Source of the DNA: Chitinophagaceae bacterium IBVUCB1
GTDB lineage: Bacteria; Bacteroidota; Bacteroidia; Chitinophagales; Chitinophagaceae
Assembly (NCBI GenBank): GCA_002127285.1
Contig: NFUW01000002.1
Coordinates: forward strand, 830,744-894,743
Direction of reading: 5' to 3'
DNA length: 64,000 nt
The notes beneath the pieces are model-generated. The model did not search any database and was not told the DNA's origin. It saw nothing but the letters and a program-made list of their open reading frames with translations. The translations under genes and the position numbers were made by a program. This document shows, one piece after another, positions 44,828 to 63,664 of the stretch. How positions within the stretch are numbered: position 1 is the stretch's first letter; each line of letters opens with the position of its first letter.

Positions 44828-44885
44828 TTCTTATTTTGTAAATGTTGCTTGAATACCATTATCTAATTGCGATATCATAACTCCC

Positions 44886-44939: not shown

Positions 44940-44958
44940 TTGCGATGGTTTTTACAAA

Positions 44959-45378
44959 TTACGGTGTCCTCAATTCTTTCCGCCCATAGATGAAGTACGC
45001 TATAAGTCCGGCTAAAATTTTGAGGCCGCTACCTATAAAAAATTGTGTAACCCAACTTTCCGTATCGTCCATAGCAATTGAAATAATAATGTAGTCTATA
45101 ATCGTATAAACTATCGGGAGGGCTAAAGCGTACAGTAACTGTTGCTGATTGAACCGCTGAACAAATCTTTTGACAAATAAGAAAACAAACAGTGAACCAA
45201 AGATGTATGATACCCAAGGTGCCGACCGGGTTGCATGGGCTTCGTAAAACACATCATCGTGCCCGGGATTGATGAGGAAAGAATATATGACAACTTCAAT
45301 AATAGAAAGCAATATAAGAAGTACGTGGAGCAGCATTGCCGTACCCACTAGTTTTAACCAAAAGTATTTTTGTTTCAT
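44959..45378 (-). CDS. Four-helix membrane protein of unknown function
   Basis: The frame is open to 45429, but the ATG at 45378 (MKQKYFWLKLVG) gives a sensible 139-residue protein. It has four hydrophobic helices (about residues 10-32, 52-72, 82-101 and 113-130) joined by short loops, and a C-terminal YGRKELRTP. I recognise no family. It follows the repeat-bordered AT-rich gene on the same strand and could be part of the same small accessory patch. Confidence 0.6.
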   Translation of the reverse strand: MKQKYFWLKLVGTAMLLHVLLILLSIIEVVIYSFLINPGHDDVFYEAHATRSAPWVSYIFGSLFVFLFVKRFVQRFNQQQLLYALALPIVYTIIDYIIISIAMDDTESWVTQFFIGSGLKILAGLIAYFIYGRKELRTP

Positions 45379-45764
45379 ATCTCTAATTGGTTGTTTACTT
45401 GTATCTTTTGCCGATATTATACAACACAATAAAAATAATACTTAAATTTAAATAACGGCTAAATAACCATTTTTCGCCCAACCATATTAGAATTGAAGTA
45501 AGGTATATATTCAATAAATAAACGTCCCGCTGTTCCAAATGTTCCGCAGGGCATTTGGAACAACTAATAATACTCAGTTTTCTGAACGGCGTTATTAGCA
45601 CCAAAGCTGTATTACAGAGGCATTAACAATAGTACAGCGAATCCCGTTCGCAGAACGGCTCATTATAAATAGTTGTAGATGCTATACTACAATATTTGTA
45701 GCACAAAAAACGCCGCAGATAGCGGCGTAAATAACATGTCTAATAAAAATGTATGCAGGTGTTC
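45379..45764. other. Intergenic region with hairpins
   Basis: 386 nt without a convincing gene. It holds an 11-bp inverted repeat TGTTCCAAATG / CATTTGGAACA (45531-45541 and 45552-45562), an imperfect CCGTTCG/GAACGG element near 45647-45658, and the terminator of the operon to the right. No promoter is obvious for the membrane-protein gene. Confidence 0.5.
45711..45727 (-). terminator. Terminator of the MORN/DUF3857 operon
   Basis: CGCCGC / GCGGCG stem with loop AGATA; on the minus strand it is followed by TTTTTTG. It closes the operon running from 52942 to 45765. Confidence 0.8.
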
Positions 45765-47717: not shown

Positions 47718-47723
47718 AATCAT

Positions 47724-49643
47724 TTAATCTTTTGTGATAATAATAGACTCTTGGTATTGTTTTCTCAATGCCTCAATCAATTTGTTATTTTCTTCAAACT
47801 GCTTTGGTTGTATATAGAGTGTCTTTACTTCAAACTCTTTAATAAGGCGTACTTCTTTACCCAGATTTTCATATACAATCTTACACTTTAACAGATTGTC
47901 GGCACTTTTCTCGAATACAGGAGGCAAATAACTTACATGATAGCCTTTAGGGATTTCCATAGTTACTACCTGCCTGATAATACTATGATAATCAATTTCC
48001 ATAGGCACAGTTCTGTCTTTTGTATCAATCCATTGGTTTTGGTAGCTGCGTTCAAGGTTCATATTAATATACCATTCTTTGCCTACCTGCAACGGATAGT
48101 CCGGTATTTCAAAATTTGAATAGACACGTATAGCATTATCTTGCAACACTTTAAAATCGAATTCTTTCTGGATATATTTATTAGAGCCTCGAGATGTGAT
48201 GGATTTGATTGCATCTTCCTGTTCCCCGGCATTTCGGTACTGCATCATATCTGCTAATCTGTATGCAGTGTAGCCTTTCATGTTAATCACAACATTGCCC
48301 ACCAATGCCTTGCCAGCCAGTGATATATGTGTTGAGTCTTGTATCAGGTTGTGTGTGCCCGGCGTTACAGGAATTGTTATTACTTTATAACTCTCTTTGC
48401 TTATTTGCACTAAGGCATCCTTGCCTTGTAGGTTGAAAGGGGGAATGCCAAAAGGAATGGTAGCGTCTGTTGCATCTAAAAAAACAAAGTTGCCATCAAT
48501 TTCTACTGCACAAATCATATGATTATCTGTAACAGGTAGTGGAGTTTCCTTGTACTTATATGGCTTTTTTCGTGTGCCTATCCAAGTGTAGTAAGATTTT
48601 AAGCCTGCGTACCTGCACATGGTAACCAATAGTCCTGCCATGTCTTTGCAATCGCCGTATTTTCTTTGGCAAACAATATGCGCTTCTCTGGGAATAAAAC
48701 CTCCCATGCCATCTTCAAATGCTACATATTTTATATTTGCCTGTACCCATTGATATATTTTTTTTGCTTTCTCAGCATCTCTTGTCGCGTCTTTGGTAAT
48801 ATCTGCTACCAGTTTCTTCAGGTGTTCGTCAGGCTTGGCATTTACATCTTTGATGAAGCCGTAATAAAACCTGTTGAGATCTGATACAGTACCGAACATC
48901 TGTCGGGGACCTTCATCAGCAGATGGTGTATAGCTTTCTATATATAAAAGCAAATGCGGCAAATAATAGGATGCATTGGGTGCATCTTCAAATATCTTGT
49001 ACTTATCCAGGTTTTCTGCAGCCCATGTATAGGTTATTTTGTTTCTGCTTTCATCCATTGTCATTTTGACCATATCAGTATTCTGCCCTTTCAACTGCCA
49101 TTTAATCTTTACATCCTTCGGCACAGTAACACTAAACTGGGAATTGACAGTTGGTATATATGACTGGAAATAGTACGATGGCATGAAATGAAGGTCTGTA
49201 TGTTCTATTTGATATTTAACGACTGTTTTTGCTCCTTTTACTAAGCCCGGGTAAGACAAAATAGTCTCGTAATCATCATCATAAAATATACCCTCTGACG
49301 TAGATTTTTTTTCTTTAAAATCTTTCACTTTCAGCTTATCATATCCATTCTTTGCAGGTATTAAAGAATAGCCTTCTACGTTTTTCAGTTTTTCAAAATT
49401 AGTACGATAAACACTTGCATTATTATAAAGCCCCGGTGCAACATCTGTAAGCAGCAATATTTCTTTCTGAACCTCCATTAAGCCCTTTAAAACACCATCT
49501 TCAACCTTTACTTGCAGGTGTTGCTTATGACTGGTAACAATAGCATTTTCGCCCTTATACTTCTCTGCCAAAATCAGTTCTGCATCCTGGCTAAAGGCAC
49601 TATGTGTTGCTGTAAGCAACAATAACGATAATATCTTTTTCAC
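47724..49643 (-). CDS. DUF3857 protein with intact transglutaminase domain
   Basis: This 639-residue exported protein (signal peptide ending AFSQ) has DUF3857 at about 40-210 and a transglutaminase-like cysteine peptidase or transferase core with the complete triad: Cys332 in KYGDCKDMAG, His375 in TDNHMICAV and Asp390 in FLDATDA. A beta-rich C-terminal domain follows. The family is periplasmic or surface-associated; the reaction (cross-linking, peptide cleavage or another) is not known. It lies 2 nt after the MORN-protein gene and directly before its degenerate paralogue. Confidence 0.88.
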   Translation of the reverse strand: MKKILSLLLLTATHSAFSQDAELILAEKYKGENAIVTSHKQHLQVKVEDGVLKGLMEVQKEILLLTDVAPGLYNNASVYRTNFEKLKNVEGYSLIPAKNGYDKLKVKDFKEKKSTSEGIFYDDDYETILSYPGLVKGAKTVVKYQIEHTDLHFMPSYYFQSYIPTVNSQFSVTVPKDVKIKWQLKGQNTDMVKMTMDESRNKITYTWAAENLDKYKIFEDAPNASYYLPHLLLYIESYTPSADEGPRQMFGTVSDLNRFYYGFIKDVNAKPDEHLKKLVADITKDATRDAEKAKKIYQWVQANIKYVAFEDGMGGFIPREAHIVCQRKYGDCKDMAGLLVTMCRYAGLKSYYTWIGTRKKPYKYKETPLPVTDNHMICAVEIDGNFVFLDATDATIPFGIPPFNLQGKDALVQISKESYKVITIPVTPGTHNLIQDSTHISLAGKALVGNVVINMKGYTAYRLADMMQYRNAGEQEDAIKSITSRGSNKYIQKEFDFKVLQDNAIRVYSNFEIPDYPLQVGKEWYINMNLERSYQNQWIDTKDRTVPMEIDYHSIIRQVVTMEIPKGYHVSYLPPVFEKSADNLLKCKIVYENLGKEVRLIKEFEVKTLYIQPKQFEENNKLIEALRKQYQESIIITKD

Positions 49644-49645
49644 TT

Positions 49646-52600
49646 TTACAAGTTTTCTATGGTCATCAGTTCGCCGTATTCATAAGTAAGTTTGAAGCCC
49701 TTGCCTGCAGAGTTATAATATAACTGAACTCCATGGCGTTCTCCCATCACAAAGTTGGAGTGTATTAATAGCTTCCCGTTCTCTGAATACGTCTTCTCCT
49801 GCCCGTTTATTACATTGTCTTTGTAAGTTGTTTCGTAAGAAGGTTTGCCATTAGGAAAATAACGTTTAAAAGCCCCGTTTAACTCGGTACGTACATAGTT
49901 CTTCTCTTCCGCTATATTGCCGTTACTGAAATAAGTAATTACTTTGCCATCATATAAATTTTCAACCGTGCTGGCTTCAAATGCCTTTTTACCGTTCGCA
50001 TAGTAAGTCTGAACTTTACCTGTGCCATTTTTTAATGGTATCAATGGCAATAACTTACCGTCATTGCCTTCATAAGTATAACCAATAAGATTACGCTCAT
50101 CGTAATGATACACTAAAGCTATCTTTTCTTCTTCTCCGTAGAATATCTGATTACCTTCCATGTAATCGTAGTCCATATTATATTCTGCTCTCAACTGCCC
50201 ATTTTGATACATCTTATCCTTACCATGCTCATCCCCATTTACAAAATACATATCCCTTTCAAGTTTGCCACTGAAATCGTGATGTATCCACCTGCCGTTC
50301 TTGTTTCCATTGGAGAAACTGCCATTGAACGCCTCTTTGCCACCTGGAAAATAATTCAGCACCAAGCTATCCCGATTACCATTTTTATAGTACCCTTTTT
50401 CTCTGATCGTTTTATCGGGGTAATATGAAGTGTATGCACCCTCATACTTACCGTTTTTTAATTGTGCTTCAAACGATATATTCCCATTCGGGTAAATGAA
50501 GTAGTATTTGCCTGTTCCTAACGGGAATTTTAGTTTATGAATAATCTTGCCCTTATTATCATACTGCTCCATGCGCATTATCAGGCCTTTGTCATAATAA
50601 TCCATGTATATGATCTTGCCATCTGAATTATAATGTCTTGAAGGGCCATTGGGCTCGTCATCAAGATAAAAAGCTTCGCGTTCCAATTTTCCGTTTACAG
50701 TATAATAACGCCAAACTCCTTCCTTCTTATTATCAAACAACCAGCCCTCAGCCTGTAGTTGCCCATTACCGAAGTAACCTTTGTATGGGCCAGTACGCTC
50801 ATTTTTTACATACTCGCTTTCTATGTACTTTTTACCTGTTTTATAATATTCGATTGTAGTGCCTTGCCTCAGATCATTTTCAAAATTTATGACTTGGCGC
50901 AGGCTACCAGTATTGAAATAATACTTTGCCTGTCCATGAACATCCCCGTTTTTTAATGGTAAATCTGCTTGAAGACTTCCATCTGCATAATAGCGTTTCA
51001 AGGATTGTAATTGCGCAGATGCTTCTTTTATTTCTTTGCCGTCTACTCCTTTGAAAGTATATCCTACTGGTTGACTATTTTTATAATCAATAATATAGTA
51101 TTCTCTCTCTTTGCTGAAGGTTATATCTGCGCCATTGCGTTTTCCGTCTTTGAATGTTGTCTTTTCTGTTACCTGCCCCTGTTCGTTATATGATGTATAT
51201 ACTCCATCTGCTTTGCCTGCTTTATAATTCAGTTCTGTTTCTTTTTTACCGTTTTCATAATAAGTGGTATATATACCGTCGCGGTCGCCTTTGCGGTAAA
51301 TTCCTTCTTCTTTCAGTTTACCGCTCTCATAATACTCTTTATATTCTCCTGTTTTCTTGCCATCCGATATATTTACCTCTTGCTCAATACGACCATTGCT
51401 GTGATACCATTTATATTTTCCATCCATCAGCGATTTATCCTCTACTTTCAGAACAGCTTTTACATTGCCGTTAAGGTGGTATAAAATAACTTCATTTGTT
51501 TTGTCGGGCAACACTGTGGTCTTTACGGAAAGTATGCCATTATTAGTATACTCCAGTTCTTCTGTTTGCTCGCCTGCATTGTTGTATTTGCGAACTTCTT
51601 TCAGGAAACCATTTTTATAGTATTCTCTTGCTTCGCCCTGAATCACACCATTCTTATACGTTTCTGTGAGGCGGATATTACCGCTTGGGTGATAATAAAG
51701 CCAAGCACCGTCTTTTTCTCCATTGTTATTAAACTTTCCCTCGGCAGTCAGGTAGTAATTACTATACAATTTTGTATGCCCTTCTCTAAAAACTACTTTC
51801 CCATCTTCCATTGAAAGATTACCAACCACATATACATTACTATTGTTATCATACGAGTATTGCATAGGGGCTTTTTCTCGCTTGTGGTACTCTATAGTGC
51901 GTGTAGCCACTATTCTATTCCAATAAGGAAATACAAGTTCTCTCACTTCTGAAATATCTCTTTTTTGCTTTTTAGCATACTGTTCAACTACATCAATACC
52001 GTAATTAGAAAACATTAGCAGTATAAGCGGGTCGAACATACTCTTGTTGTACACATCTTTAAAAAGCGGTACATAATATTGCATTGCAAAGTTTTTTGAG
52101 TTCTTATCGTAGCTAAGTTTATCCATCATGGCATAGGCTACTCTTACTATTTGGTCTTCGCCCATTACAGAAGGAATGTTGTACCCTTGGTTTAATGCCA
52201 GTTTCGCGTATATTATCTCATCTATTTCGCTAAATAGTTCGTAACCTTCTTTTCGCTGGTCGTAGTACTCAGCAATTTCCTTACTTTGACGGGCTATGGC
52301 ACTAAGTGACAGGATTGCCCCTCTTGCAATATTTACATCGTTCGTAAAAAGCAAAGCTGCTAAAAAAGACATATACGCCTCTGTCAGTCGCCCCTGCCGT
52401 ACATATATGTTTCCCAACAAGGCATGAGAACGGTAGTGATAGGGGTTCATCATTAGCGCAGTTTCCAGCAAAGACATAGCTTTGTTGTAATCTTCTTTTT
52501 GAAAATAAACAACTGATTTTTCATAGTACACAATATTGTCGGTAGGATGCATTCGCATTAAGCTGTCGTAATAGTAATTTGCACTATCAGACTTACCCAG

Positions 52601-52942
52601 ATAGTCATACGCATGTGCTGCCAGATACAACATCTTGCGTTTGTCAATATTGTCAAGTTGCATCCCTTCAAGCGCAACCTGTTTCGATTTTTCAAATGCA
52701 CTATCTGCTAAGTATGAAAGTGCTATTTCGTACTTAGCAATGGCATAGTTGGTGTCGCCTTCAGGTACTTGGATAAAATAAGAGAGCGCATTTTTAAAAT
52801 CATCCTTATCGTATAGTTCAATACCCTTTTCTAATAGCTCTCTTGAGTCTTTCAAGGTATTTTGTGCAGCAACATCTGATGTAAAAACTAATGACTGTAA
52901 GAATATTAGGGAAGCAATCCCTGCTATAGAGCGTTTAGGCAT
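49646..52942 (-). CDS. Large TPR plus MORN/YwqK-repeat exported protein
   Basis: This 1098-residue protein has a signal peptide (to about residue 26, ending AAQ), tetratricopeptide-like repeats (about 30-220, for example KSVVYFQKEDYNKAMSLLETAL), a linker, and from about residue 370 to the end a very long run of short beta-hairpin repeats of MORN/YwqK type (YYENGKKETELNYKAGKADG, YFGNGQLQAEGWLFDNKKEG and many others), each about 22-24 residues. It is first in an operon with two DUF3857 proteins and has a candidate ECF promoter about 260 nt upstream. It may act as an elongated scaffold in the periplasm or at the surface. Confidence 0.85.
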   Translation of the reverse strand: MPKRSIAGIASLIFLQSLVFTSDVAAQNTLKDSRELLEKGIELYDKDDFKNALSYFIQVPEGDTNYAIAKYEIALSYLADSAFEKSKQVALEGMQLDNIDKRKMLYLAAHAYDYLGKSDSANYYYDSLMRMHPTDNIVYYEKSVVYFQKEDYNKAMSLLETALMMNPYHYRSHALLGNIYVRQGRLTEAYMSFLAALLFTNDVNIARGAILSLSAIARQSKEIAEYYDQRKEGYELFSEIDEIIYAKLALNQGYNIPSVMGEDQIVRVAYAMMDKLSYDKNSKNFAMQYYVPLFKDVYNKSMFDPLILLMFSNYGIDVVEQYAKKQKRDISEVRELVFPYWNRIVATRTIEYHKREKAPMQYSYDNNSNVYVVGNLSMEDGKVVFREGHTKLYSNYYLTAEGKFNNNGEKDGAWLYYHPSGNIRLTETYKNGVIQGEAREYYKNGFLKEVRKYNNAGEQTEELEYTNNGILSVKTTVLPDKTNEVILYHLNGNVKAVLKVEDKSLMDGKYKWYHSNGRIEQEVNISDGKKTGEYKEYYESGKLKEEGIYRKGDRDGIYTTYYENGKKETELNYKAGKADGVYTSYNEQGQVTEKTTFKDGKRNGADITFSKEREYYIIDYKNSQPVGYTFKGVDGKEIKEASAQLQSLKRYYADGSLQADLPLKNGDVHGQAKYYFNTGSLRQVINFENDLRQGTTIEYYKTGKKYIESEYVKNERTGPYKGYFGNGQLQAEGWLFDNKKEGVWRYYTVNGKLEREAFYLDDEPNGPSRHYNSDGKIIYMDYYDKGLIMRMEQYDNKGKIIHKLKFPLGTGKYYFIYPNGNISFEAQLKNGKYEGAYTSYYPDKTIREKGYYKNGNRDSLVLNYFPGGKEAFNGSFSNGNKNGRWIHHDFSGKLERDMYFVNGDEHGKDKMYQNGQLRAEYNMDYDYMEGNQIFYGEEEKIALVYHYDERNLIGYTYEGNDGKLLPLIPLKNGTGKVQTYYANGKKAFEASTVENLYDGKVITYFSNGNIAEEKNYVRTELNGAFKRYFPNGKPSYETTYKDNVINGQEKTYSENGKLLIHSNFVMGERHGVQLYYNSAGKGFKLTYEYGELMTIENL

Positions 52943-53203
52943 AAACGAAGTTTATAAATAAGTAGTATAAAAATAACTGAATTTCTGATTTATCCTACTT
53001 GCTGCACAGGTAATAGATGCAAAGAGATAAAAAGTATAGGCTTACAATAAAACATACACACTTAATATATATGACTTAAGTACACTTGAATATTAGATAG
53101 TATAAGACAAAAGCTATTGAGGTGGTTCATTTTTTGAGTGCAGAACATGTTTTTCTGTTGAGAAATTAGATAGTTAGAAAAAACCGGATTAATAATCCAC
53201 GGC

Positions 53204-53231
53204 CAAAACGCAGATATGTGGTAATACCCCT
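53204..53231 (-). promoter_or_regulatory. Candidate ECF promoter toward the MORN/DUF3857 operon
   Basis: On the minus strand: AGGGGTATT, 12 nt, then CGTTTTG. Same spacing as the three plus-strand sites. The start codon is about 260 nt downstream. Confidence 0.6.
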
Positions 53232-53257
53232 ACGTTAAAAAATATATTTTTTTAGGT

Positions 53258-53285
53258 AGGGGTACAGTCATACTCGTACGTTATT
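53258..53285 (+). promoter_or_regulatory. Candidate ECF promoter of the T9SS-protein gene
   Basis: AGGGGTACA, 12 nt, CGTTATT. Identical boxes and spacing to the site before fecR. The start codon is 98 nt downstream. Confidence 0.65.
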
Positions 53286-53383
53286 CTGGTGTATGTAGCT
53301 ACAATACACAACCTCGAAAAATGAAGGCTTGAATACGGAGGTAACATCAATCAACTTATTAATAACATTAAAAACTTACAAAA

Positions 53384-54373
53384 ATGAAACAATATCTTAC
53401 AATCATCGCCGCTGCCCTTACGCTGGGTTATTCATCTGTAAAGGCTCAAATGCCCTATACGCTGACCGTTCAAAATCAGGCGTACGCACCATTAACAGGT
53501 GCTACTAGTGTAAACGGCACAAAACCCTGGACAGACACCAGTAATTTTTCAGTACCAATAGGCTTTAACTTCAAAATGGGTGGTAAAACCATTACAAGGT
53601 TAAGTTTGGCTAATATGGCAACATTTGCGACAGATACAACGGGTACTATTTCCGGCTTTGATTTTATAGGTACATCTCTTATAGACAGAGGCATAAAAGG
53701 AACTACATCAAAATCGCCCATACGTTATAGCACGACAGGTACAGCAGGTAGCCGCATATTTAAATTGGAGCTTTTCAACGCAGGGTTTTATGATGAAGAT
53801 GCAACCTACAATACATTGAACGACTCCGTTAATCTTCAGGTATGGTTATATGAAGGTACCGATGTTGTGGAGTTACGTTATGGTACTTCCAAGATATCAA
53901 ACTATAGCGATTACTTTTTTATAGGTGGTCCATTGGTTGGTTACTCAAAAAATGTAAAAACTGAATCAGGTGATTTTGAAAAAATCTACTTGCTGAAAGG
54001 TAATCCAACAGTTCCTACTATTGATAGTGTAAGTATGCCGCCATCTATGAACATTCCACACTTATCTGCCTATCCTGCCAATGGTACTGTGTATCGCTTT
54101 GCACCTAAAACAACCACAGGCATAGCAGGTGTGTTAGAAGCTGACAATATCAAAGTGTTTCCAACATTGTGTACGGATAAATTGATGGTTGTAAACAAAA
54201 ACCAGCAAGAGATGCAATACCAAATCATATCATTATCAGGCAGTGTGCTTGCTAAGGGCAATATTGCCAATGGATACAATACTCTGGAAGTAAGCAACCT
54301 GCCTGCAGGTATGTATGCACTCACATTGATGGATAACAGGGGGCAGGCTACTTATAAGTTTGCGAAACAATAA
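53384..54373 (+). CDS. T9SS-secreted protein of unknown function
   Basis: This 329-residue exported protein has a signal peptide (ending SVKAQ), a beta-rich body (about 30-235) with no recognised domain but repeated Gly/Thr-rich strands (SNFSVPIGFNFKMGGKTITRL), and a C-terminal type IX sorting domain (about 255-329: NIKVFPTLCTDKLMV ... LEVSNLPAGMYALTLMDNRG). It should be exported to or anchored at the cell surface. It is the first gene after a candidate ECF promoter and is followed 47 nt later by a small outer-membrane-type protein. It could be a ligand-binding surface protein for the neighbouring uptake receptors; that is inference. Confidence 0.82.
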   Translation: MKQYLTIIAAALTLGYSSVKAQMPYTLTVQNQAYAPLTGATSVNGTKPWTDTSNFSVPIGFNFKMGGKTITRLSLANMATFATDTTGTISGFDFIGTSLIDRGIKGTTSKSPIRYSTTGTAGSRIFKLELFNAGFYDEDATYNTLNDSVNLQVWLYEGTDVVELRYGTSKISNYSDYFFIGGPLVGYSKNVKTESGDFEKIYLLKGNPTVPTIDSVSMPPSMNIPHLSAYPANGTVYRFAPKTTTGIAGVLEADNIKVFPTLCTDKLMVVNKNQQEMQYQIISLSGSVLAKGNIANGYNTLEVSNLPAGMYALTLMDNRGQATYKFAKQ

Positions 54374-54420
54374 TCGACATAGGCTTTAGTAAGCGATAGC
54401 ATCAGATAAAAAAAGCAACA

Positions 54421-55032
54421 ATGAAAAACTTAATAATATGCGGCATGATGTGTATACTGTCTGTAACAACAGTAAGTGCACAAAGCACTAGCAGACTTAG
54501 TGAAAGGAATGGTTTTAGTTGCCCCAAATTATATGTAGGTACTAGTATTGGCGTAGATAATCCGGCAGGTGCATGGGGTATCAATATAGAAGTGCCTGTT
54601 GCCAAACACTTGTCGGTAGGTACAGGTGCTGGGCTTAGTTCTTGGGGAGCTAAAACTTTTGGGGAACTGAGGTATTACCTTGGCGAATGTCATAGAGGAT
54701 GGGCGGCAGGTGCAGGGGTTGCATACAATACAGGCATCAGACAGATTACGGTTGGTGTACCAACTACTACAACTGCAGCCAATACAGATGTAGTGATGCA
54801 GATGAACCCACGCAGCAGCCTGTTTTTTGCAGCCTACCGTTTCTGGAATATGGGCAAGCGTGGACACAGGGTAAATGCAATGCTTGGCTACGCTATGCAA
54901 ATGGGCAATGGCAGCAACTACACTGTAAAAAACGGCCATACCTTACTCGATGCCACAGATAGGGCTATCAATACATTTGCCCCAGGGGGCATCATGATAG
55001 GTTGCGGCTTTACGTTCGGGGTGATACGATAA
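54421..55032 (+). CDS. Small outer-membrane-barrel-like protein
   Basis: This 203-residue exported protein has a signal peptide (ending TVSAQ). The remainder alternates hydrophobic and polar residues with Gly-rich turns (VGTGAGLSSWGAKTFGELRYYLG, HRVNAMLGYAMQMGNG) and ends in a strand GCGFTFGVIR, as in small eight-strand barrels. I recognise no specific family. It follows the T9SS gene and precedes a terminator, so both are probably one unit. Confidence 0.7.
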   Translation: MKNLIICGMMCILSVTTVSAQSTSRLSERNGFSCPKLYVGTSIGVDNPAGAWGINIEVPVAKHLSVGTGAGLSSWGAKTFGELRYYLGECHRGWAAGAGVAYNTGIRQITVGVPTTTTAANTDVVMQMNPRSSLFFAAYRFWNMGKRGHRVNAMLGYAMQMGNGSNYTVKNGHTLLDATDRAINTFAPGGIMIGCGFTFGVIR

Positions 55033-55047
55033 ATGGCGCAATTGTAG

Positions 55048-55073
55048 CAAAGCCGCATAGATGTGCGGCTTTG
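55048..55073 (+). terminator. Terminator after the small barrel gene
   Basis: Perfect 10-bp stem CAAAGCCGCA / TGCGGCTTTG, 6-nt loop, then TAATTTT. It isolates the T9SS unit from the sigma gene. Confidence 0.85.
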
Positions 55074-55142
55074 TAATTTTATGCAGAAGGGTGATTTTAT
55101 CATTTTTAATAGGATACCGTTTTTACGCATGGCTATATTTAT

Positions 55143-55150
55143 TAGATTTG
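55143..55150 (+). promoter_or_regulatory. Putative housekeeping -7 element of the ECF sigma gene
   Basis: TAGATTTG fits TAnnTTTG, 23 nt before the start. The sigma gene itself lacks the AGGGGT/CGTT promoter, so it appears to be made by the main sigma factor. Confidence 0.5.
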
Positions 55151-55173
55151 CTTCGTAAGCGCATCATTGCCCC

Positions 55174-55734
55174 ATGGCCAACGCAGACAAGGCATTTAAA
55201 GATTTATTTGACAGAGAGTATCAAAACCTTTGCCGTTATGCGCTTTCTTATCTGCAAGACAGCCACCTGGCAGAAGACGTAGTACAGGAAACATTCGTAA
55301 AATTCTGGGAACAGAAAAAGGATTTGATAGATAGCCCGGATGCCAAATTTTACCTTGTTACAGCAGTACGGAACAATAGCATAACCGCATTGCGGAAACA
55401 GACTAAAGCCGGTGTGCAACTGGCAGAGAATACACCTGAACCCGAGCCTGAACCATTTATTACCAACAGGCAGGCAAGGGAAGACGCGAACGAACAAGCC
55501 CGTAAAGTGGCACAGGCGCTGGAGCAGCTACCCCCTAAGTGCAAAGAGGTGTTTTTGATGGTAAAGATGCAGGGGATGAGCTACAAGCAAGCCGCAGAAA
55601 CGCTTGATTTATCTGTGAAAACCGTTGAAAACCAGATGGGTAAAGCCATTAAGACATTGAGAGATTATGTGCAGCAATCCGTAGTAACTATTATCATTTT
55701 TGTATTAATATTAATAAATATGTTCGGCGGATAG
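55174..55734 (+). CDS. FecI-like ECF sigma factor
   Basis: This 186-residue sigma-70 family protein has region 2 (LFDREYQNLCRYALSYL, AEDVVQETFVKFWEQKKDL), region 4 (EQLPPKCKEVFLMVKMQGMSYKQAAETLDLSVKTVENQM) and a hydrophobic C-terminal tail of about 17 residues (TIIIFVLILINMFGG) that is long for the family and could touch the membrane. It is followed by fecR, an STN-type TonB receptor and DUF4249 genes, the standard cell-surface signalling order. Its stop codon overlaps the -35-like box of the next promoter. Confidence 0.95.
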   Translation: MANADKAFKDLFDREYQNLCRYALSYLQDSHLAEDVVQETFVKFWEQKKDLIDSPDAKFYLVTAVRNNSITALRKQTKAGVQLAENTPEPEPEPFITNRQAREDANEQARKVAQALEQLPPKCKEVFLMVKMQGMSYKQAAETLDLSVKTVENQMGKAIKTLRDYVQQSVVTIIIFVLILINMFGG

Positions 55735-55760
55735 GGGTACATGTTTAACCCTGCGTTATT
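55733..55760 (+). promoter_or_regulatory. Candidate ECF promoter of fecR and downstream genes
   Basis: AGGGGTACA, 12 nt, CGTTATT. It begins inside the sigma stop codon and ends 15 nt before the fecR ATG, implying a leader of only about 9 nt. Confidence 0.65.
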
Positions 55761-55775
55761 ATTACAGAGTGTGTT

Positions 55776-56753
55776 ATGGAAATGAATGAACAAATAGATT
55801 TGATAATTGCCAAAAAACTGGTAGGCGAGGCATCGGCAGACGAGCAACGCCTGCTGGACGAATGGCTGGCAGCCGATACGCGCAACCAGGCAGCGTATGA
55901 CGGCATAGCCGCTATGTGGCATCAGTCGGACGATTTGTTTAACAGTGCAAGTTTTGATACAGGTGCCGCATGGCAGAAGATAGCCCCACAAATAACAGCT
56001 AAAGTACCAAAAGGGCGCACTATAGCTATGCCGCAATGGACTAAATATGCATCAGGTATTGCTGCCATATTGCTGATAGGTTTTGTATTGATGAAGCCCG
56101 GTGCAGATAGTGGTATGGTAACACTACTGGCAGATGCGGGCAATAGTGAAGTAATACTACCTGATCAATCTAAAGTAACACTGCGAAAAGGCAGTAAACT
56201 GACATATCCTAAAACATTTGATGGTGCGCAACGCAATGTATCACTTGAGGGAGAAGCTTTTTTTGAAGTGCAACGAAACGAGGCAAAACCATTTGTAATA
56301 GATGCACAGTCAGTTTCGGTAACGGTACTGGGTACATCGTTTGATGTAAAGAGCGGCACTACGGGTGCTACCGTAACAGTAGCGTCGGGCAAAGTGCGCA
56401 TGGCTGCAAAACAAGCTAATACTACACCCCTTATATTAACCAAGGGTGAGCATGGCGACTATACAGGTGCCGAACTGAAAGAAAGCCTGCTGGAAGGAGA
56501 TAATTATCTGTTTTGGAAAACAGGCGTACTACGCTATGACAATAAACAATTGGCATTTATAACAGCAGAGCTATCGCATTATTATAATACCCAGATAACT
56601 ATAGATAACAATATGCCTGCCAATGTGCAAGCACAGTTAATAACTATCAACTTCAACAACCAAAGTATAGATGCCGTGCTGAACGAGCTATGTATGGTTG
56701 CCAATTGCCGCATACAACAAAATGGAGGTAAATACGTTATAATGCCACATTAA
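55776..56753 (+). CDS. FecR-family anti-sigma factor
   Basis: This 325-residue protein has an N-terminal cytoplasmic sigma-binding domain (about 1-85, DAEEQRLLDEWLA-type helices and the conserved tryptophan motif), one transmembrane helix (about 90-107, YASGIAAILLIGFVLM), a periplasmic FecR domain (about 125-215, SKLTYPKTFDG, VSLEGEAFFEVQ, FVIDAQSVSVTVLGTSFDV) and a C-terminal DUF4974 domain (about 255-325). It should hold the ECF sigma factor inactive until the STN receptor signals. The start could also be the ATG two codons downstream (55782). Confidence 0.95.
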   Translation: MEMNEQIDLIIAKKLVGEASADEQRLLDEWLAADTRNQAAYDGIAAMWHQSDDLFNSASFDTGAAWQKIAPQITAKVPKGRTIAMPQWTKYASGIAAILLIGFVLMKPGADSGMVTLLADAGNSEVILPDQSKVTLRKGSKLTYPKTFDGAQRNVSLEGEAFFEVQRNEAKPFVIDAQSVSVTVLGTSFDVKSGTTGATVTVASGKVRMAAKQANTTPLILTKGEHGDYTGAELKESLLEGDNYLFWKTGVLRYDNKQLAFITAELSHYYNTQITIDNNMPANVQAQLITINFNNQSIDAVLNELCMVANCRIQQNGGKYVIMPH

Positions 56754-56757
56754 ATCA

Positions 56758-59319
56758 ATGCGTCTTTTCATCACCCTTTTTACTGCATTGCTGATGAGCT
56801 GCCTGTATGCACATGCGCAGCAAAGCGTGTTTTCTCAAAAATATAAACCGGCATTTACCAGTGGTACTGTTAAGAAGTATATCAAAGATATGGAGCGCCA
56901 GACACGAGTATCCATTTCTTATAGCACGGCGTATGTAGATGTGAAGCGTGTAGTGCAACTACAACAGGTAGAGCAAACACTGTATGACGCGCTGACAATG
57001 ATACTCGACGGGCAGAACCTGCGACTTGAGGAAAGCAACGGCAAGATATTAGTAATGCATGCTGCCGACAACAAGCAACCAACAACAAGCAGGCAAGTAT
57101 TGAATGGCTATGTGAAAGAGCAGCAGACGGGCGAGGTATTGATAGGTGCGGTAGTATATGTACCCGAATTGAGCATAGGTACTGCTACCAATAGTTACGG
57201 GTTCTACAGCCTGTCGTTACCTGCAGGCAGGCATCGGGTTATATGTTCTTATATTGGTTATGCTTCCGATAGTTTTTATACAGACAAAATACAGGCTGGC
57301 AGGCACGATGTGCAGATGAAACTGCATAGCGAACTGAAAGAAGTAGATGTAGTGTCTGACAAAGAAACATCGCCCGACCATGTGCACCTTACCAACAGCG
57401 ATATAAAAAGCCGTCCATCTATATTGGGAGAAAATGATGTAATGCGCGCACTGCAATATGTATCTGGTGTACAGTCGGGCGTTGATGGTACAAATGCTGT
57501 GATGGTAAGGGGCGGAGACCCGGGGCAAAACCTGAATCTGCTGGATGGTGTGCCGCTATACTATGTTGACCATTTCTTCGGGTTGACGTCGGTTTATAAT
57601 TCGGAAGCAATTCGTTCGGTTGATTTTCATAAAGGTGCGTTCCCATCCCGCTATGGTGGCAGGCTTTCTTCCGTAATAGATGTGAATACCAAAGATGGGG
57701 ATATGCAGCGTTGGGGCGGACAGTTCAATATGGGTATTGTAAAAAGCAGCCTGAGTATTGAGGGGCCTATAAAAAAAGATAAGGCTTCAATCATGCTATC
57801 TGCAAGGCGCACATGGTTCGATTTATTGTGGCGGCCATTTACTAAAGAACTGGCTATCAATTTTTATGACATTAATGGCAAGGCAAACTATATTATCAAT
57901 AAGAACAACCGTGTATATCTGAGTTTTTATAACGGCAGAGATGGCATCAGGTCAACTTTTTTTGGTACGGGCACAGAAGCACGTTGGGGCAATACACTTG
58001 CCAGTGCCAAATGGAATACGGTAGTGAATCCCAAACTGTTTGTGAATACAATACTTACCTACAGCCGCTTCAGATATACGTTGGAAGACACAAGGCAGGT
58101 GTTAGATAATGGTACGGTTAACAGTAGTGGAAAATATACCGGCAACTCGTCTATTAATGAAGTGGCATTGCGTGTAAGGGCGCAGTGGTATGCCACAGCA
58201 TCGCAGCGTGTAGAAATCGGGGGGCATTTCAGTACGGCTCAGTTTATACCTACAGAGTTATTGTCTTTCGACAGTAAGAGTGTATATACTACAACGATTG
58301 TGCCTGCAGATAAATTTCAATCGAACGAGTTTGCGTTTTTTGTAGAGGATGAAATAAAACTGACGGATAAGTGGATGATACGCCCCGGCATACACATTGC
58401 CAACTGGTTTAGCGAACGCTTTGATTATTCCAATGTTCAGCCACGTTTCTATACCAACTACGCGTTTACACCTAAGCATAGTATATATGGTTCGTTTACC
58501 AAAATGGCGCAGTTTCTTCATCTCATCAGCAATAACACATACGGGCTGCCAACTGATTTCTGGTTGCCCAGTTCGGATAGAATAGAACCTGAAGAAGCAA
58601 CGTTATATACAATAGGTTATGCAGCGAAACCTGCGCGGCGTTTGTCTTTCAATATAGAAGGGTATTATAAAGACCTGAAAAATACCATCACGTATAATAT
58701 GGGTAAGAACCTGTTTGACAACTCGCTGCAATGGGATGAGAAAATAATACAGGGAACCGGATGGAGCTACGGCGGAGAGGTGTCTGCCAAATGGGATTTA
58801 GGAAAGATAACATGGACAACGGCATACACGCTATCGTGGACGTGGCGCAAGTTTGCGCAACTAAACGAGGGGCGACCATTCCCTTTTCGGTTTGACAGAA
58901 GGCACAACCTGCGCACCTCTTTATTGTATAAGCCATCGCAAAAACTGGACCTTGCTGCAAGCTGGACATATATGACGGGCGAAGCCATTACCATGCCCGA
59001 CCAGATATACCCCGACCTGGATAACAACCTGCACATTGCCCCGTCTTCTATAACTACCAGTTCCAACTACACATATAACTATGTGCAGTGGAATAACTAT
59101 CGTTTGCCAGCCATTCACCGTTTGGATATTGGTGCCAATTTTACAAAGAAACGGGAAAAAGCAGAACGCACATGGTCGGCTGGGTTCTTCAACGTATATG
59201 GCAGGCCGAATGTAATGTTTGTAGAACTGGTAAGCGAAGGTGCCAATGGTGCATTTAAACTGAAAGGTATTAGTGTACTGCAGTTTGTGCCATATCTATC
59301 GTATAAATTAGATTTTTAA
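56758..59319 (+). CDS. TonB-dependent receptor with STN signalling domain
   Basis: This 853-residue receptor has a signal peptide (to about 20), an STN domain (about 35-100, with TRVSISYSTAYVDVKRVV and LYDALTMILDGQNLRL) that contacts FecR in related systems, a carboxypeptidase-regulatory-like domain (about 115-200), a plug (about 220-330, VMVRGGDPGQNLNLLDGVPL) and a barrel. It begins 4 nt after fecR. STN plus FecR plus ECF sigma means ligand binding can switch on the regulon. Its plug is very similar to that of the receptor at 60437. The substrate is unknown. Confidence 0.93.
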   Translation: MRLFITLFTALLMSCLYAHAQQSVFSQKYKPAFTSGTVKKYIKDMERQTRVSISYSTAYVDVKRVVQLQQVEQTLYDALTMILDGQNLRLEESNGKILVMHAADNKQPTTSRQVLNGYVKEQQTGEVLIGAVVYVPELSIGTATNSYGFYSLSLPAGRHRVICSYIGYASDSFYTDKIQAGRHDVQMKLHSELKEVDVVSDKETSPDHVHLTNSDIKSRPSILGENDVMRALQYVSGVQSGVDGTNAVMVRGGDPGQNLNLLDGVPLYYVDHFFGLTSVYNSEAIRSVDFHKGAFPSRYGGRLSSVIDVNTKDGDMQRWGGQFNMGIVKSSLSIEGPIKKDKASIMLSARRTWFDLLWRPFTKELAINFYDINGKANYIINKNNRVYLSFYNGRDGIRSTFFGTGTEARWGNTLASAKWNTVVNPKLFVNTILTYSRFRYTLEDTRQVLDNGTVNSSGKYTGNSSINEVALRVRAQWYATASQRVEIGGHFSTAQFIPTELLSFDSKSVYTTTIVPADKFQSNEFAFFVEDEIKLTDKWMIRPGIHIANWFSERFDYSNVQPRFYTNYAFTPKHSIYGSFTKMAQFLHLISNNTYGLPTDFWLPSSDRIEPEEATLYTIGYAAKPARRLSFNIEGYYKDLKNTITYNMGKNLFDNSLQWDEKIIQGTGWSYGGEVSAKWDLGKITWTTAYTLSWTWRKFAQLNEGRPFPFRFDRRHNLRTSLLYKPSQKLDLAASWTYMTGEAITMPDQIYPDLDNNLHIAPSSITTSSNYTYNYVQWNNYRLPAIHRLDIGANFTKKREKAERTWSAGFFNVYGRPNVMFVELVSEGANGAFKLKGISVLQFVPYLSYKLDF

Positions 59320-59325
59320 CATCAG

Positions 59326-60378
59326 ATGAAAAAAAGGGAATACGGTACAATATGTTTGTTGCTTGCAGCGTTTGTGATGCTGTTGCAGGCGTGCCGTAAA
59401 GACCTGCCACTGCCGGATGTGGGTGGTGAAAAAAAACTGACTATGCTGGGGGAATTTGTATTGGGTGATACTTTTTTGCTGCGTGCAGGGCAGAGTGTAT
59501 CTGTATCGGCTAATAGTAAACTACAGTTTGATTTGCTGCAAAATATTTCGATAAGCTTAGAAGAGCCAACAGGTGCTAAATACAATATGGCTGCCTATAC
59601 TGACTCGTTTTCGTGGCGATTGTTTACATATCCGTTTTCGCTCAGCAGGAAAGTGCAGGCTAACAGTACCTATAAGGTAACAGCTACGCACCCTACCCTT
59701 GGTACGGCTACAGCAATTGTAAATATACCTGCACAAGTTGATGCTTTTGTTGTTGATACTGCCGGAGTGCAATATAGTGGTGATACTACTTTGCGAATAA
59801 AAGTGCAGATAAATGACCCTGCTAACACGACGGATTATTATGTGATAGAAGCCGTAAAACAGAAGATGAACGTGATAGGATATTTTCAGCAAAACGGTGG
59901 CTGGAAATTGATAAATGAAGACCGGATAATGTATGACGAACTGAAAGCTAATGGCACAGTTGTAACCCGTTTCGATACCATTTATTATAACGACTATATA
60001 CGGCAGCCTATTTACACTACCGATGTGAATACGGAAAACCTGTTGGACGTAGGCTCTTTTACGCGCAGCAGGCGTGTATTGCTGAAAGACCAGCGCATCA
60101 ACGGCACATCGTACCGAACAGATGTATATGTGATAAAAAATACAGACCCTGCAACTGAAAACGGTTTATGGAAAGGCAGGATAATCCTGTATATAAAAGC
60201 AGTCTCTGCCGATTATTTTAAATTTCTGAAATCTTATGAAGTATATAACCCGTCATCAGGTTTCAACAGCTTTGAACAACCTGTAAAGATTGAAGGTAAT
60301 GTGAAAAACGGTATGGGTATCATAGGTGGTGTGTCTGTACAGAAATACACGTATATGTACGATATCTGGAATTATTAA
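59326..60378 (+). CDS. DUF4249 lipoprotein, first copy
   Basis: This 350-residue protein has a lipoprotein signal with lipobox LQAC (Cys23). Beta-rich domains follow: a first Ig-like part (GEFVLGDTFLLRAGQSVSV...), then the DUF4249 core with DPANTTDYYVIEAVKQK, and the C-terminal ADYFKFLKSYEVYN and FEQPVKIEGNVKNGMGIIGG that mark this family. DUF4249 proteins nearly always sit behind a TonB receptor and are taken to be its surface ligand-binding partner, like SusD but unrelated. It starts 6 nt after the receptor stop codon. Confidence 0.9.
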   Translation: MKKREYGTICLLLAAFVMLLQACRKDLPLPDVGGEKKLTMLGEFVLGDTFLLRAGQSVSVSANSKLQFDLLQNISISLEEPTGAKYNMAAYTDSFSWRLFTYPFSLSRKVQANSTYKVTATHPTLGTATAIVNIPAQVDAFVVDTAGVQYSGDTTLRIKVQINDPANTTDYYVIEAVKQKMNVIGYFQQNGGWKLINEDRIMYDELKANGTVVTRFDTIYYNDYIRQPIYTTDVNTENLLDVGSFTRSRRVLLKDQRINGTSYRTDVYVIKNTDPATENGLWKGRIILYIKAVSADYFKFLKSYEVYNPSSGFNSFEQPVKIEGNVKNGMGIIGGVSVQKYTYMYDIWNY

Positions 60379-60387
60379 CCATTACAT

Positions 60388-60415
60388 AGGGGTTGCACCC
60401 CAAGATTACGTTTTA
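60388..60415 (+). promoter_or_regulatory. Candidate ECF promoter of the second receptor unit
   Basis: AGGGGTTGC, 12 nt, CGTTTTA. Same layout as the fecR site, less perfect in both outer halves. The receptor ATG is 21 nt downstream. Confidence 0.6.
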
Positions 60416-60436: not shown

Positions 60437-62728
60437 ATGAAACAAAGCATGTTTGTTTTACTACTGCTTTTGTTTGCTGCACGTTTGTGCGCACAGCAAG
60501 TAACCATCAGCGGCTATGTAACGGAAAAGAAAAGCGGTGAGCGCCTGATAGGTGCTACGGTCTTCATACCCGAAAAAAATGCGGGTACTACTACCAACGC
60601 TTATGGCTTTTACTCTATAACCATAGCAGCGGCAGACGTAACGCTGAAGGCATCATATATAGGGTATGTACCTTTTTCGCAAACCATGCAGCTAAAGCAA
60701 GACATCAGCCTGAACATTGAACTGGAAAACGCAAGGGATATGAAAGAAGTAGTAGTGACAAGCAAAAAAGATGCTATACAGGAACGAACACAAATGAGCA
60801 GTATAGACTTGCCGATACAAACTATCAAATCGTTGCCCGCATTTCTGGGAGAAGTGGATGTGATGAAAGCACTGCAACTGCTGCCAGGTGTACAGGCAGG
60901 TAATGAAGGTGCAACAGGCATCTATGTGCGTGGTGGCGGCCCAGACCAAAACCTGATACTGTTGGATGGTGTGCCGGTATATAACGCGAGCCATTTGTTT
61001 GGTTTTTTCAGCGTGTTCAACGCAGATGCAGTACGCAGTGTAGAGTTGGTAAAGGGTGGTTTCCCCGCACGGTATGGCGGACGTTTATCGTCTGTAGTTG
61101 ACATCAACATGAAAGAAGGTAATAAAAACAAACTGCATGGCGAAGGTGGTATAGGTCTTATCGCATCAAGGCTGACGCTGGAAGGCCCGATACAAAAAGG
61201 TAAATCATCGTTTATGATTTCGGGCAGGCGCACGTATTTCGATTTAATCGCAAGGCCCTTTATGCGTGGTAATGTAAAAGGCGGATATTATTTCTACGAC
61301 CTGAACGGTAAAGTAAACTTTAAGCTGAGCGAAAAAGACCACTTGTACGTAAGCGGGTATTTCGGAAACGATAAGTTTTATGCCAAGCAAAATCAAGATG
61401 GGAATGCGTTGAGTACATCTTTCAATTCGGATTTGAAATGGGGCAATGCTACGGCAGTAGCGCGCTGGAATCATCAGTACAATAAAAAATTATTCGGCAA
61501 CCTGACGGCTTATTACGGGCAATACCGCTTTTTGATAACTGCACAAACACGCAGTACGTTTTCCGGTACAAACGAGGATTTTTTGCTGAAGTATTCATCA
61601 GGCATTAACGACAAAGCGGTTAAATACGACTTTGATTATATACCACACCCCAACCATTATATAAAAGCAGGCGTAGGTTATGTGTATCATACCTACAAGC
61701 CGGGTGCGCAACAGACCAAGGTAAATACCGCAGGCTTGAAACAAGATACTACCATTGGTATTAAAGACATTAATGCAGGAGAGATAGATGCGTACATAGA
61801 AGACGACATAAAAATATCGAACGCGCTGAAAGCTAATATCGGTGTACACTGGACGGGCTTTGCAGTACAGAACAATTTTTACAACGCTATACAACCCCGT
61901 GTAGCATTGCGTTACCTGATAAATGAGCAGCTAAGTGCCAAAGCCTCTTTTGTACAGATGAACCAGTTTATACACTTACTCACCAATTCATCCATCGGGC
62001 TGCCTACAGATTTGTGGGTACCTGTAACGGCGCGCATCCCTATGCAGCAGTCGTATCAGGGAGCAGCAGGCTTTGCATATACGCACAACACAGGTATAGA
62101 AGTAACGTTAGAGGGCTATTATAAAACAATGGATAATGTACTGGAATATAAAGAAGGTGCCAGCTTCTTTAACGCGGGTAGTAACTGGGAAGATAAAGTA
62201 GAGGTAGGCAAAGGCTGGAGCTATGGGGGTGAACTGTTTTTGCAGAAAAAGAAAGGACGATTTACAGGCTTGATGGGTTATACACTATCGTGGACGAACA
62301 GGCAGTTTGCTAACCTGAACAAAGGAGAGGCATTTCCTTACCGATACGACCGCAGGCACGACTTTAAGATTGCAGGTATATACGAATTGGCTAAGAATAT
62401 AGAAGTAAGTGCCGAATGGGTATATGGTACGGGCAACGCCATCACCATGCCAATAGGATATTATAACGGACCGGACGGTGCAGCCGTACAAGTATATGGC
62501 AGCCGCAATGGCTACAGGATGCCTGCTTATCATCGTGCAGATGTAAGCATCAAGTTTATGAAACGCAAACCCAACTGGGAACGCGCTTGGGTAATAGCGG
62601 CGTATAATGTGTATAACAGGTACAATCCGTTTTACATCTATGCCAGCACTACACAAGGAAGGACAGTGTTTAACCAGGTGAGCCTCTTCCCCATAGTGCC
62701 GTCTATCAGTTATCAATTCAAATTTTAA
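60437..62728 (+). CDS. TonB-dependent receptor without STN domain
   Basis: This 763-residue receptor has a signal peptide (ending LCAQQ), a carboxypeptidase-regulatory-like domain (about 22-105), a plug (about 120-235; IYVRGGGPDQNLILLDGVPV, FPARYGGRLSSVVDINMKEGN) and a barrel ending PSISYQFKF. It shares many motifs with the receptor at 56758 (LLDGVP, YGGRLSSV.D, GRRTYFDL against ARRTWFDL), so the two are tandem paralogues, but it lacks the STN domain and cannot signal to FecR. It probably adds transport capacity or ligand range. Confidence 0.92.
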   Translation: MKQSMFVLLLLLFAARLCAQQVTISGYVTEKKSGERLIGATVFIPEKNAGTTTNAYGFYSITIAAADVTLKASYIGYVPFSQTMQLKQDISLNIELENARDMKEVVVTSKKDAIQERTQMSSIDLPIQTIKSLPAFLGEVDVMKALQLLPGVQAGNEGATGIYVRGGGPDQNLILLDGVPVYNASHLFGFFSVFNADAVRSVELVKGGFPARYGGRLSSVVDINMKEGNKNKLHGEGGIGLIASRLTLEGPIQKGKSSFMISGRRTYFDLIARPFMRGNVKGGYYFYDLNGKVNFKLSEKDHLYVSGYFGNDKFYAKQNQDGNALSTSFNSDLKWGNATAVARWNHQYNKKLFGNLTAYYGQYRFLITAQTRSTFSGTNEDFLLKYSSGINDKAVKYDFDYIPHPNHYIKAGVGYVYHTYKPGAQQTKVNTAGLKQDTTIGIKDINAGEIDAYIEDDIKISNALKANIGVHWTGFAVQNNFYNAIQPRVALRYLINEQLSAKASFVQMNQFIHLLTNSSIGLPTDLWVPVTARIPMQQSYQGAAGFAYTHNTGIEVTLEGYYKTMDNVLEYKEGASFFNAGSNWEDKVEVGKGWSYGGELFLQKKKGRFTGLMGYTLSWTNRQFANLNKGEAFPYRYDRRHDFKIAGIYELAKNIEVSAEWVYGTGNAITMPIGYYNGPDGAAVQVYGSRNGYRMPAYHRADVSIKFMKRKPNWERAWVIAAYNVYNRYNPFYIYASTTQGRTVFNQVSLFPIVPSISYQFKF

Positions 62729-62752: not shown

Positions 62753-63664
62753 ATGAAAAGGTATTATAATATAGGTTTCATAGCCATTTTGGCATTGGCA
62801 TCTTGCCAAAAAGAAATAACGGTAAACGTACCCGAGTATAAGGAAAAGCTGGTGATCAATAGTAATACGATTGTGGGCGATCCATTCAGCATATCGGTAG
62901 GCAAGTCTATCGGCATATTAAAGTACAATGCACTGCAAGACCTGTATGTACGCAATGCCAGCGTAGTACTATATAAAGGCAATGTGCCTGCTGATACCAT
63001 GCGATACGATAATACTGTGGGCAAATATGTATCGGACATCATAGCCGAAGAAGGACAATCGTACAATGTGAAAGTAAACGCTGCAGGTTATAGTGAAATA
63101 TCTGCTTCTACGATAGTGCCTGCCGATGTGCCCATAGCAGGTATTCAGCGCATACGCGATGTGCGGCTGGATATAGAGGGGCAAAAGCTGGATGAGATAC
63201 GCATAACATTTAACGACCCGCCTGCCAAAGGAGACTATTATATATTGAGCATTACAAAAAGCAGTAGTGATACCATGAACGGGATAAGCCGTAGCTATTC
63301 GTGTGTCTATACAGCCGATGCAAGTATTGAGAGCGTGTATGACGAAACCATAGACCAGAATACCTGCCTGAACGGCGACGCGTTATTTATGAGAGACGCA
63401 TTGTTTAATGGTACTACCAAAGAATTGCGCCTGTATGTAAATGGTTCGTTTCTAGAGCCAACTATCATGTTCGGACAAGAGGTGAGAGCTACCCTGGTGC
63501 TGATGCATGTAACGGAAGACTTTTTCAAATTCAGAAAAACATACCAGTTTGCCTTAGATAATGAAGGTAATCCCTTTGCCGAACCAACCAATGTGCATAC
63601 GAATGTAAAGAACGGGTATGGCACATTCAGCGTGATGAGTTATGATGAGGTAGAGATAAAGTAG
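62753..63664 (+). CDS. DUF4249 lipoprotein, second copy
   Basis: This 303-residue protein has a lipoprotein signal with lipobox LASC (Cys18). It has the same domain plan as the copy at 59326 but is about 45 residues shorter: FNDPPAKGDYYILSITKS matches NDPANTTDYYVIEAV, and EDFFKFRKTYQFALDNEGNPFAEPTNVHTNVKNGYG matches the other C-terminus. It lies 24 nt after its receptor, repeating the receptor/DUF4249 pair. A terminator follows about 150 nt later. Confidence 0.9.
   Translation: MKRYYNIGFIAILALASCQKEITVNVPEYKEKLVINSNTIVGDPFSISVGKSIGILKYNALQDLYVRNASVVLYKGNVPADTMRYDNTVGKYVSDIIAEEGQSYNVKVNAAGYSEISASTIVPADVPIAGIQRIRDVRLDIEGQKLDEIRITFNDPPAKGDYYILSITKSSSDTMNGISRSYSCVYTADASIESVYDETIDQNTCLNGDALFMRDALFNGTTKELRLYVNGSFLEPTIMFGQEVRATLVLMHVTEDFFKFRKTYQFALDNEGNPFAEPTNVHTNVKNGYGTFSVMSYDEVEIK

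Follow-up and report, generated by a model that had tools for sequence, protein, structure and literature searches.

Genes of the locus and four promoter-like sites

The window analysed here is a stretch of 64,000 nucleotides of the genome of Chitinophagaceae bacterium IBVUCB1 (contig NFUW01000002.1, positions 830,744 to 894,743 of the forward strand), and our interest is in an extracytoplasmic function (ECF) sigma factor encoded in it and in four copies of a two-box, promoter-like motif around its gene. The sigma gene (55174..55734, + strand) matches TIGR02985 (Sig70_bacteroi1) with 146.7 bits, above the cut-off of 126.4, with Sigma70 regions r2 and r4 both matched; the protein has the recognition helix SVKTVENQMGKA and a hydrophobic C-terminal tail. 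On the same strand follow a FecR-type anti-sigma factor (FecR and FecR_C; 55776..56753; PF04773, 63.3 bits; PF16344, 37 bits) and, from profile matches, TonB-dependent receptor 1 with a weak N-terminal STN match (56758..59319), its DUF4249 partner (59326..60378), a second TonB-dependent receptor lacking an STN match (60437..62728), and a second DUF4249 protein (62753..63664). Upstream of the sigma gene, profile matches identify a type IX sorting-domain protein (53384..54373, + strand) and, divergent from it, a MORN/TPR protein (49646..52942, - strand), the first gene of an operon with a DUF3857 gene. Receptor 1 is likely the signal transducer of the system, while the second receptor and the sorting-domain protein are likely outputs. 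The C-terminus of the sigma factor is hydrophobic in all 13 aligned sequences (best 17-residue mean hydropathy 1.5-2.7), the tails of paralogs are similar, and contact of this tail with the membrane is possible. As the sequence-only reading had proposed, the sigma gene has a different, housekeeping-like element of its own: TAGATTTG (55143..55150, + strand), a -7 box 31 nt before its ATG that follows the TAnnTTTG consensus of PMC9723704.

The motif had been described as AGGGGT plus three bases, a gap of 12 nt, and CGTT, and it can be read directly at 53204-53231 (- strand), 53258-53285, 55733-55760, and 60388-60415 (+ strand); the best two sites are indeed identical in both boxes (AGGGGTACA and CGTTATT). 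The boxes themselves are real, yet the nine-base first box was over-specified: after GGGGT only the first of the three bases (W) is kept in relatives, and the T preceding AGGGG, absent from that description, is conserved. What is conserved reduces to TAGGGGTW and CGTT, the latter followed mostly by W and T. In these terms, site 1 (53206..53232, - strand; -35 box TAGGGGTA at 53225-53232, -10 box CGTTT at 53206-53210) faces the MORN/DUF3857 operon, the ATG of which is about 264 nt away; site 2 (53257..53283, + strand; TAGGGGTA at 53257-53264, CGTTA at 53279-53283) stands 5' of the sorting-domain gene; site 3 (55732..55758, + strand; TAGGGGTA at 55732-55739, CGTTA at 55754-55758) is 5' of fecR; and site 4 (60387..60413, + strand; TAGGGGTT at 60387-60394, CGTTT at 60409-60413), which is kept in relatives, is 5' of the second receptor. 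All four are exact matches. An imperfect palindrome of 40 nt (53225..53264), with 20-nt arms that are 90% complementary, joins the -35 boxes of the divergent sites 1 and 2 through an AT-rich centre. Site 3 overlaps the last base of the sigma open reading frame (ORF) at 55734 and also lies under an antisense ORF of 123 aa, which we judge spurious because it overlaps fecR as well.

The pattern GGGGT-N15-CGTTW matches the window five times, where shuffled sequences averaged 0.14 matches (none of 100 shuffles reached five), and the fifth match (2803-2827) is inside an ORF. The stricter TAGGGGTW-N14-CGTTW, 27 nt long, occurs exactly four times in the genome of 3,412,171 bases, and all four are the sites described. 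The total for the looser pattern tells against our reading, since with 18 matches genome-wide, compared with 23 for the reversed pattern, there is no enrichment; this is what a chance or compositional coincidence, picked out after the fact, would produce. Position, however, is distinctive: 13 of the 18 fall within ORFs 100 aa or longer, one is astride an ORF end, and the other four are the sites described, all outside real ORFs and within 7.2 kb, where 0.03 would be expected from the other 14. A chance origin is refuted by the conservation in orthologs set out below, and we give it next to no weight. The match astride an ORF end (L010) is ambiguous, as it also lies 78 nt ahead of another gene. 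It has a counterpart in a related genome (L164 in G004), where GGGGT-N15-CGTTT is likewise astride an ORF end and 78 nt before a secreted-looking protein; this may reflect coding constraint or a fifth site. Another weak candidate, TAGGGGTA-N14-CGTATTA, is found 21 nt 5' of a secreted-looking protein of 275 aa (L396, G000:C2:983831, - strand). A large regulon of perfect matches in this genome was rejected, there being only the four exact sites besides weaker candidates (C2:808068, C2:983831, and the ambiguous L010), whose genes may nonetheless belong to the regulon.

Conservation and position of the sites within the genus

An ortholog of the sigma gene is present in 12 of the 14 other genomes of the genus (65-74% identity) and was not found in G007 and G012. 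All 12 orthologous regions have a FecR match beside the sigma gene, and in 10 of them GGGGT-N15-CGTT precedes fecR, with the -35 box starting on the sigma gene's TAG stop codon in IBVUCB1 and in 9 of the 12 orthologs. Over nine distinct sequences (four near-identical rows of 13 had been removed beforehand) the mean consensus of the fecR site is 0.93 and 0.87 in the boxes versus 0.52 in the spacer. Ten regions encode a close ortholog of the second receptor, seven of them with sites of 15-nt spacing (L067-L071, L073, L077), two with a spacing of 14 nt (L076, L078), and one with a single -35 mismatch (L072). Among the seven regions that have the sorting-domain gene, its site reads GGGGT-N15-CGTT in two (L072, L073) and GGGGT-N15-TGTT in five (L067, L068, L070, L074, L075). 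In three relatives (L076-L078) a CGTT-type site also stands 5' of the sigma gene itself, so that self-regulation of the sigma factor may differ within the genus.

The proposal that each site lies upstream of an operon has comparative support for fecR, the second receptor, and the sorting-domain gene, but not for the MORN site. Full-length MORN orthologs are found in only three of the 15 genomes of the genus (IBVUCB1, G013, and G003), those of G013 and G003 on contigs other than that of the sigma gene. No site was seen upstream of these two orthologs in the fetched loci (L225, L226), and conservation of the MORN-operon site was accordingly rejected; site 1 moreover implies a leader of 264 nt before the MORN gene. 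Both points speak against including this operon. The part of the window that contains it (44000-52942) is lower in GC content (0.36-0.38 versus about 0.44), and in our reading the operon came to be placed beside the regulon. Its control by the sigma factor is nevertheless likely, because the site is complete and a scan of 358 nt of the minus strand upstream of the MORN gene (52943-53300) showed no TAnnTTTG.

Coding and non-coding matches were compared in the 15 genomes of the genus with a simple ORF rule and the pattern GGGGTW-N14-CGTTW, for which 143 matches were listed versus 114 for the reversed pattern. Non-coding matches amounted to 48 of 138 distinct contexts, versus one of the 30 reversed-pattern loci read out of the 114 (P 2.6e-4). 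Within the sigma-gene regions 21 of 24 of these contexts were non-coding, and the preference persisted outside them (27/114 versus 1/30; P 0.009). In the genomes that have the sigma gene, TA preceded GGGG in 17 of 26 off-locus non-coding matches versus 7 of 76 coding ones (P 5e-8). The two genomes devoid of the sigma gene, G007 and G012, had a single non-coding match among 12, and that one lacked TAGGGG. Some of these off-locus sites stand ahead of proteins that look secreted and, judged by eye, resemble one another between genomes (L109, L175, and L141, the last being coding by the ORF rule); in three genomes, CGTT-type sites with differing spacers are found at secreted-looking proteins of 258-263 aa, also alike by eye (L139, L181, L190). 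The content of the regulon probably varies between species.

The -35 box, the recognition helix and a second ECF system

To look beyond the genus, named genomes were searched with a sigma alignment, which gave 80 loci, from Taibaiella, Pedobacter, Niastella, Chitinophaga, Aquimarina, Chryseobacterium, Rufibacter, and Bacteroides among others; it required the peptides ENQMGKA or LPPKCKEV, thus saying nothing on other helices, and some of its rows are close relatives. A position weight matrix built from 26 sites of the genus was scored on the fecR upstream region, taken as the 110 nt that precede the next gene after the sigma gene, in 76 of these loci. At 10 bits or more, 38 of the 76 had a match, and with the seven records of the genus itself (L261-L267) set aside the count was 31 of 69; reverse strands (0/76) and shuffles (0/380) had none. 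At 8 bits there were 38 matches on the forward strand, none on the reverse strands, and two in the shuffles. The matches include Aquimarina, Chryseobacterium, Pedobacter, Niastella, and Rufibacter; outside the genus the -35 box is mostly ATAGGGGTW, and frequent -10 boxes are CGTTTTA, TGTTATA, and TGTCTTA/TGTCATA. The promoter class is visible beside sigma genes and not as a raw genome-wide count.

The link with the recognition helix was assessed on loci chosen neither by promoter nor by the ENQMGKA peptide, namely the sigma factors of the IBVUCB1 genome (16 of its 18 sigma-like loci were read, the remaining two, which have the largest ORFs and the weakest matches, being left out), distant sigma matches, and best TIGR02985 matches. 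From these 89 loci 85 distinct ones were retained (three had no match in the hidden Markov model alignment and one was a duplicate), and two whose helix did not align were placed with the sigma factors that are not ENQMGKA-like. A sense TAGGGGTW was found near 13 of 20 ENQMGKA-like sigma factors versus 10 of 65 others (P 4.4e-5); with helix classes grouped after seeing the data, the counts are 13/20 for ENQMGKA-like, 10/35 for related KTxxx[QH], and 0/30 for the rest. All 23 TAGGGGTW-bearing loci have [CT]GT[CT] 12-15 nt after that box. Among the 16 loci of IBVUCB1, the two with the helix SVKTVENQMGKA are the same two that have TAGGGGTW sites. The four sites of our locus fall within the Bacteroidota class we propose: TAGGGGTW, 12-15 nt, and [CT]GT[CT], with a sigma factor having a helix of the KTxxx[QH] type.

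The other of these two loci is a second ECF/FecR/receptor system (L371, G000:C2:1500800-1511000, with sites at 1878, 5387, and 6557). Its sigma factor (C2:1502796) is 34% identical to that at 55174; the two share the helix SVKTVENQMGKA and differ in region 2. The three TAGGGGTW sites of the paralog carry TTGTCATA, TTGTCATA, and TTGTCATT, of the type TTGTCAT. In relatives, TAGGGGT...GT[CT][AT] recurs three times at similar positions in L372-L375, L378, L382, and L384, twice in L377, L379, and L380, and once in L383; no site of this type was found in L376, L381, and L385, of which L376 and L385 are short and L381 has a helix reading SVSTVKNQVGKA. The suggestion that one sigma factor is behind all four sites is largely supported, but the -35 half of the motif is not private to it. 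Could the paralog, or another ECF sigma factor of this genome, drive some or all of the four sites? Its identical helix and -35 box are what such an arrangement would call for. We nevertheless hold it improbable: the sites of the paralog read TTGTCAT in IBVUCB1 and GT[CT][AT] forms in most relatives, and G007 and G012 retain the paralog with its three sites, lack the first sigma factor, and have only the 1 in 12 non-coding CGTT-type matches given above.

A gene for a protein of 140 aa (C2:808116), present in seven of the 15 genomes, bears on the -10 box. Its TAGGGGT and 15-nt spacing are kept in all seven (L459-L465), with a -10 box of CGTT in G003, G009, and G014, AGTT in G000 and G004, TGTT in G006, and TGTC in G007, the sole species of the seven without the first sigma factor; a second G007 copy of the gene (L466) has no site. 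We consider it somewhat more probable than not that FecI-type sigma factors with a KTVE helix (commonly KTVENQMGKA) read the -35 box TAGGGGTW throughout the phylum, and that their regulons are separated mainly by the -10 box, which would vary (CGTT, TGTT, TGTC) in step with region 2.

Instead of an ECF promoter, the boxes might serve as an operator for an activator or repressor that binds DNA and works with the housekeeping sigma factor. Inverted repeats, common in operators, do occur in site 4 (GGGGTTGCACCCC) and in 53225-53264. An operator accounts poorly, however, for the asymmetric layout of two boxes, almost constant in spacing and with CGT/TGT as the -10 element, for the sense orientation beside sigma genes (reverse strands 0/76), for sites being commoner beside sigma factors of one helix type, and for paralogs with a common helix also having a common -35 box. 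Furthermore, TAnnTTTG was absent from the three upstream regions scanned for it (those of the second receptor, the sorting-domain gene, and the MORN gene), the fecR upstream region being outside that scan. There is little to recommend such an operator over an ECF promoter.

Proposed signalling scheme and known systems

We put at nearly 0.9 the probability that the four sites are ECF promoters of the sigma factor at 55174 within the scheme proposed here. This reading is backed by footprints in 12 relatives, by the preference for non-coding DNA, by recurrence beside related sigma factors, and by the near-absence of non-coding matches in the two genomes of the genus without the sigma gene. Several observations weigh against it or against its extensions. 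The fecR site is degenerate in 2 of the 12 orthologous regions, from close relatives (L074 and L075, in G009 and G014), where GGGGT is followed by AGTT for CGTT. Several of the 27 off-locus non-coding matches do not resemble promoters, L123 and L154 for example being in a hairpin. The STN match of receptor 1 (residues 51-99; E 4.4e-4) reaches 20.5 bits, under the Pfam cut-off of 28.4. Seven of the 20 ENQMGKA-like sigma factors have no TAGGGGTW from -350 to +300 of the ORF, and when TAGGGGTWN{14,15}GTYWTA was run across the phylum, 26 of 148 genomes had matches (34 listed), fewer than with the reversed control. The -10 code fits imperfectly, as three species with the first sigma factor have no CGTT at the 140-aa gene, and -10 specificity arising from divergence of region 2 rests on two paralogs.

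Starting from the observed position and conservation of the sites, the family of the sigma factor, and the link with its helix, we infer recognition, signal flow, ligand, and regulation at the four sites as follows. Region 4, with the helix SVKTVENQMGKA, would read the -35 box TAGGGGTW, and region 2 the -10 box CGTTW, 14 nt beyond it. The sigma gene would be expressed from its housekeeping promoter and the sigma factor held by FecR until a ligand on receptor 1 sends a signal through the N-terminal domain of this receptor to FecR. The freed sigma factor would then switch on fecR-receptor 1-DUF4249, receptor 2-DUF4249, and the sorting-domain gene, and in IBVUCB1 it probably also drives the MORN/DUF3857 operon via the palindromic divergent promoter. 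The -35 box is common to many FecI-type sigma factors of Bacteroidota, including the second system of the genome (with TTGTCAT), and regulon specificity would therefore lie mainly in the -10 box. A FecI-type promoter class with one -35 box, in which -10 boxes separate regulons, is our best reading.

In the FecI-FecR-FecA system of E. coli (PMC9249621, which also groups FecI-like sigma factors), an ECF sigma factor, a FecR anti-sigma factor, and a TonB-dependent receptor are encoded together as they are here, and the sigma gene is, as apparently in IBVUCB1, not self-regulated. Our locus differs in its receptor with DUF4249, in its several outputs including a sorting-domain protein, in the -35 box TAGGGGTW, and in the site that the sigma gene itself has in three relatives (L076-L078). 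With canonical ECF promoters (AAC at -35, CGT at -10; PMC8103513) all four sites share two boxes, ECF-like spacing, and CGT at -10, whereas all four have TAGGGGTW, with GGGG and not AAC, at -35, and some members of the class carry TGTC/TGTT as their -10 box. The -10 and -35 boxes are recognised by separate domains (PMC3817407). The same paper, a promoter survey of 2013, excluded the six FecI-like groups (5-10) from its motif search as not autoregulating, although a legend cites a single model common to them, which was inactive in the survey's tests. Non-canonical ECF sigma factors are treated in PMC8999054.

Within Bacteroidota, the motif SM6 of Flavobacterium psychrophilum (PMC9723704) likewise has a CGT box at -10 in an ECF set that includes type IX secretion system genes; its available text, the logo aside, gives no GGGG box at -35, and its sigma factor is not assigned with certainty. 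Genomes of the phylum can carry tens of ECF sigma factors, B. thetaiotaomicron 50 (PMC12596196). Among the SigW-1/SigH-1 sites of that species (PMC12596196) and the non-canonical promoter PM2 (PMC7366714), two SigW-1 sites are reported to have TGTT at about -10, as in our class; PM2 is near-palindromic, and no TAGGGGT appears in the available text of either paper, logos aside. A transcript 5' end inside the anti-sigma gene of PUL24 is given in PMC11501099. The receptor-DUF4249 operon resembles the pair BT2172/BT2173 of a DUF4249 protein and a TonB transporter (PMC11003636), with two such pairs served here by one ECF system. Text searches of the literature turned up no named ECF -35 motif of the TAGGGGT type; figure logos were outside their scope, so such a motif may already have been published. 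The papers returned for AGGGGT together with ECF sigma factors concern, by title, Streptomyces, Mycobacterium, and Neisseria.

As a regulon the locus is of an ordinary kind, and what is of interest is the pattern of a common -35 box and split -10 boxes across the phylum. A readable promoter code would permit the prediction of regulons from sequence for this class of sigma factors and would supply separable parts for genetic tools. If the -10 code is true, a gene could pass from one regulon to another merely through a change of its -10 box, as the 140-aa gene hints, and a common -35 box combined with different -10 boxes would account for how sister sigma factors in one cell avoid cross-talk.

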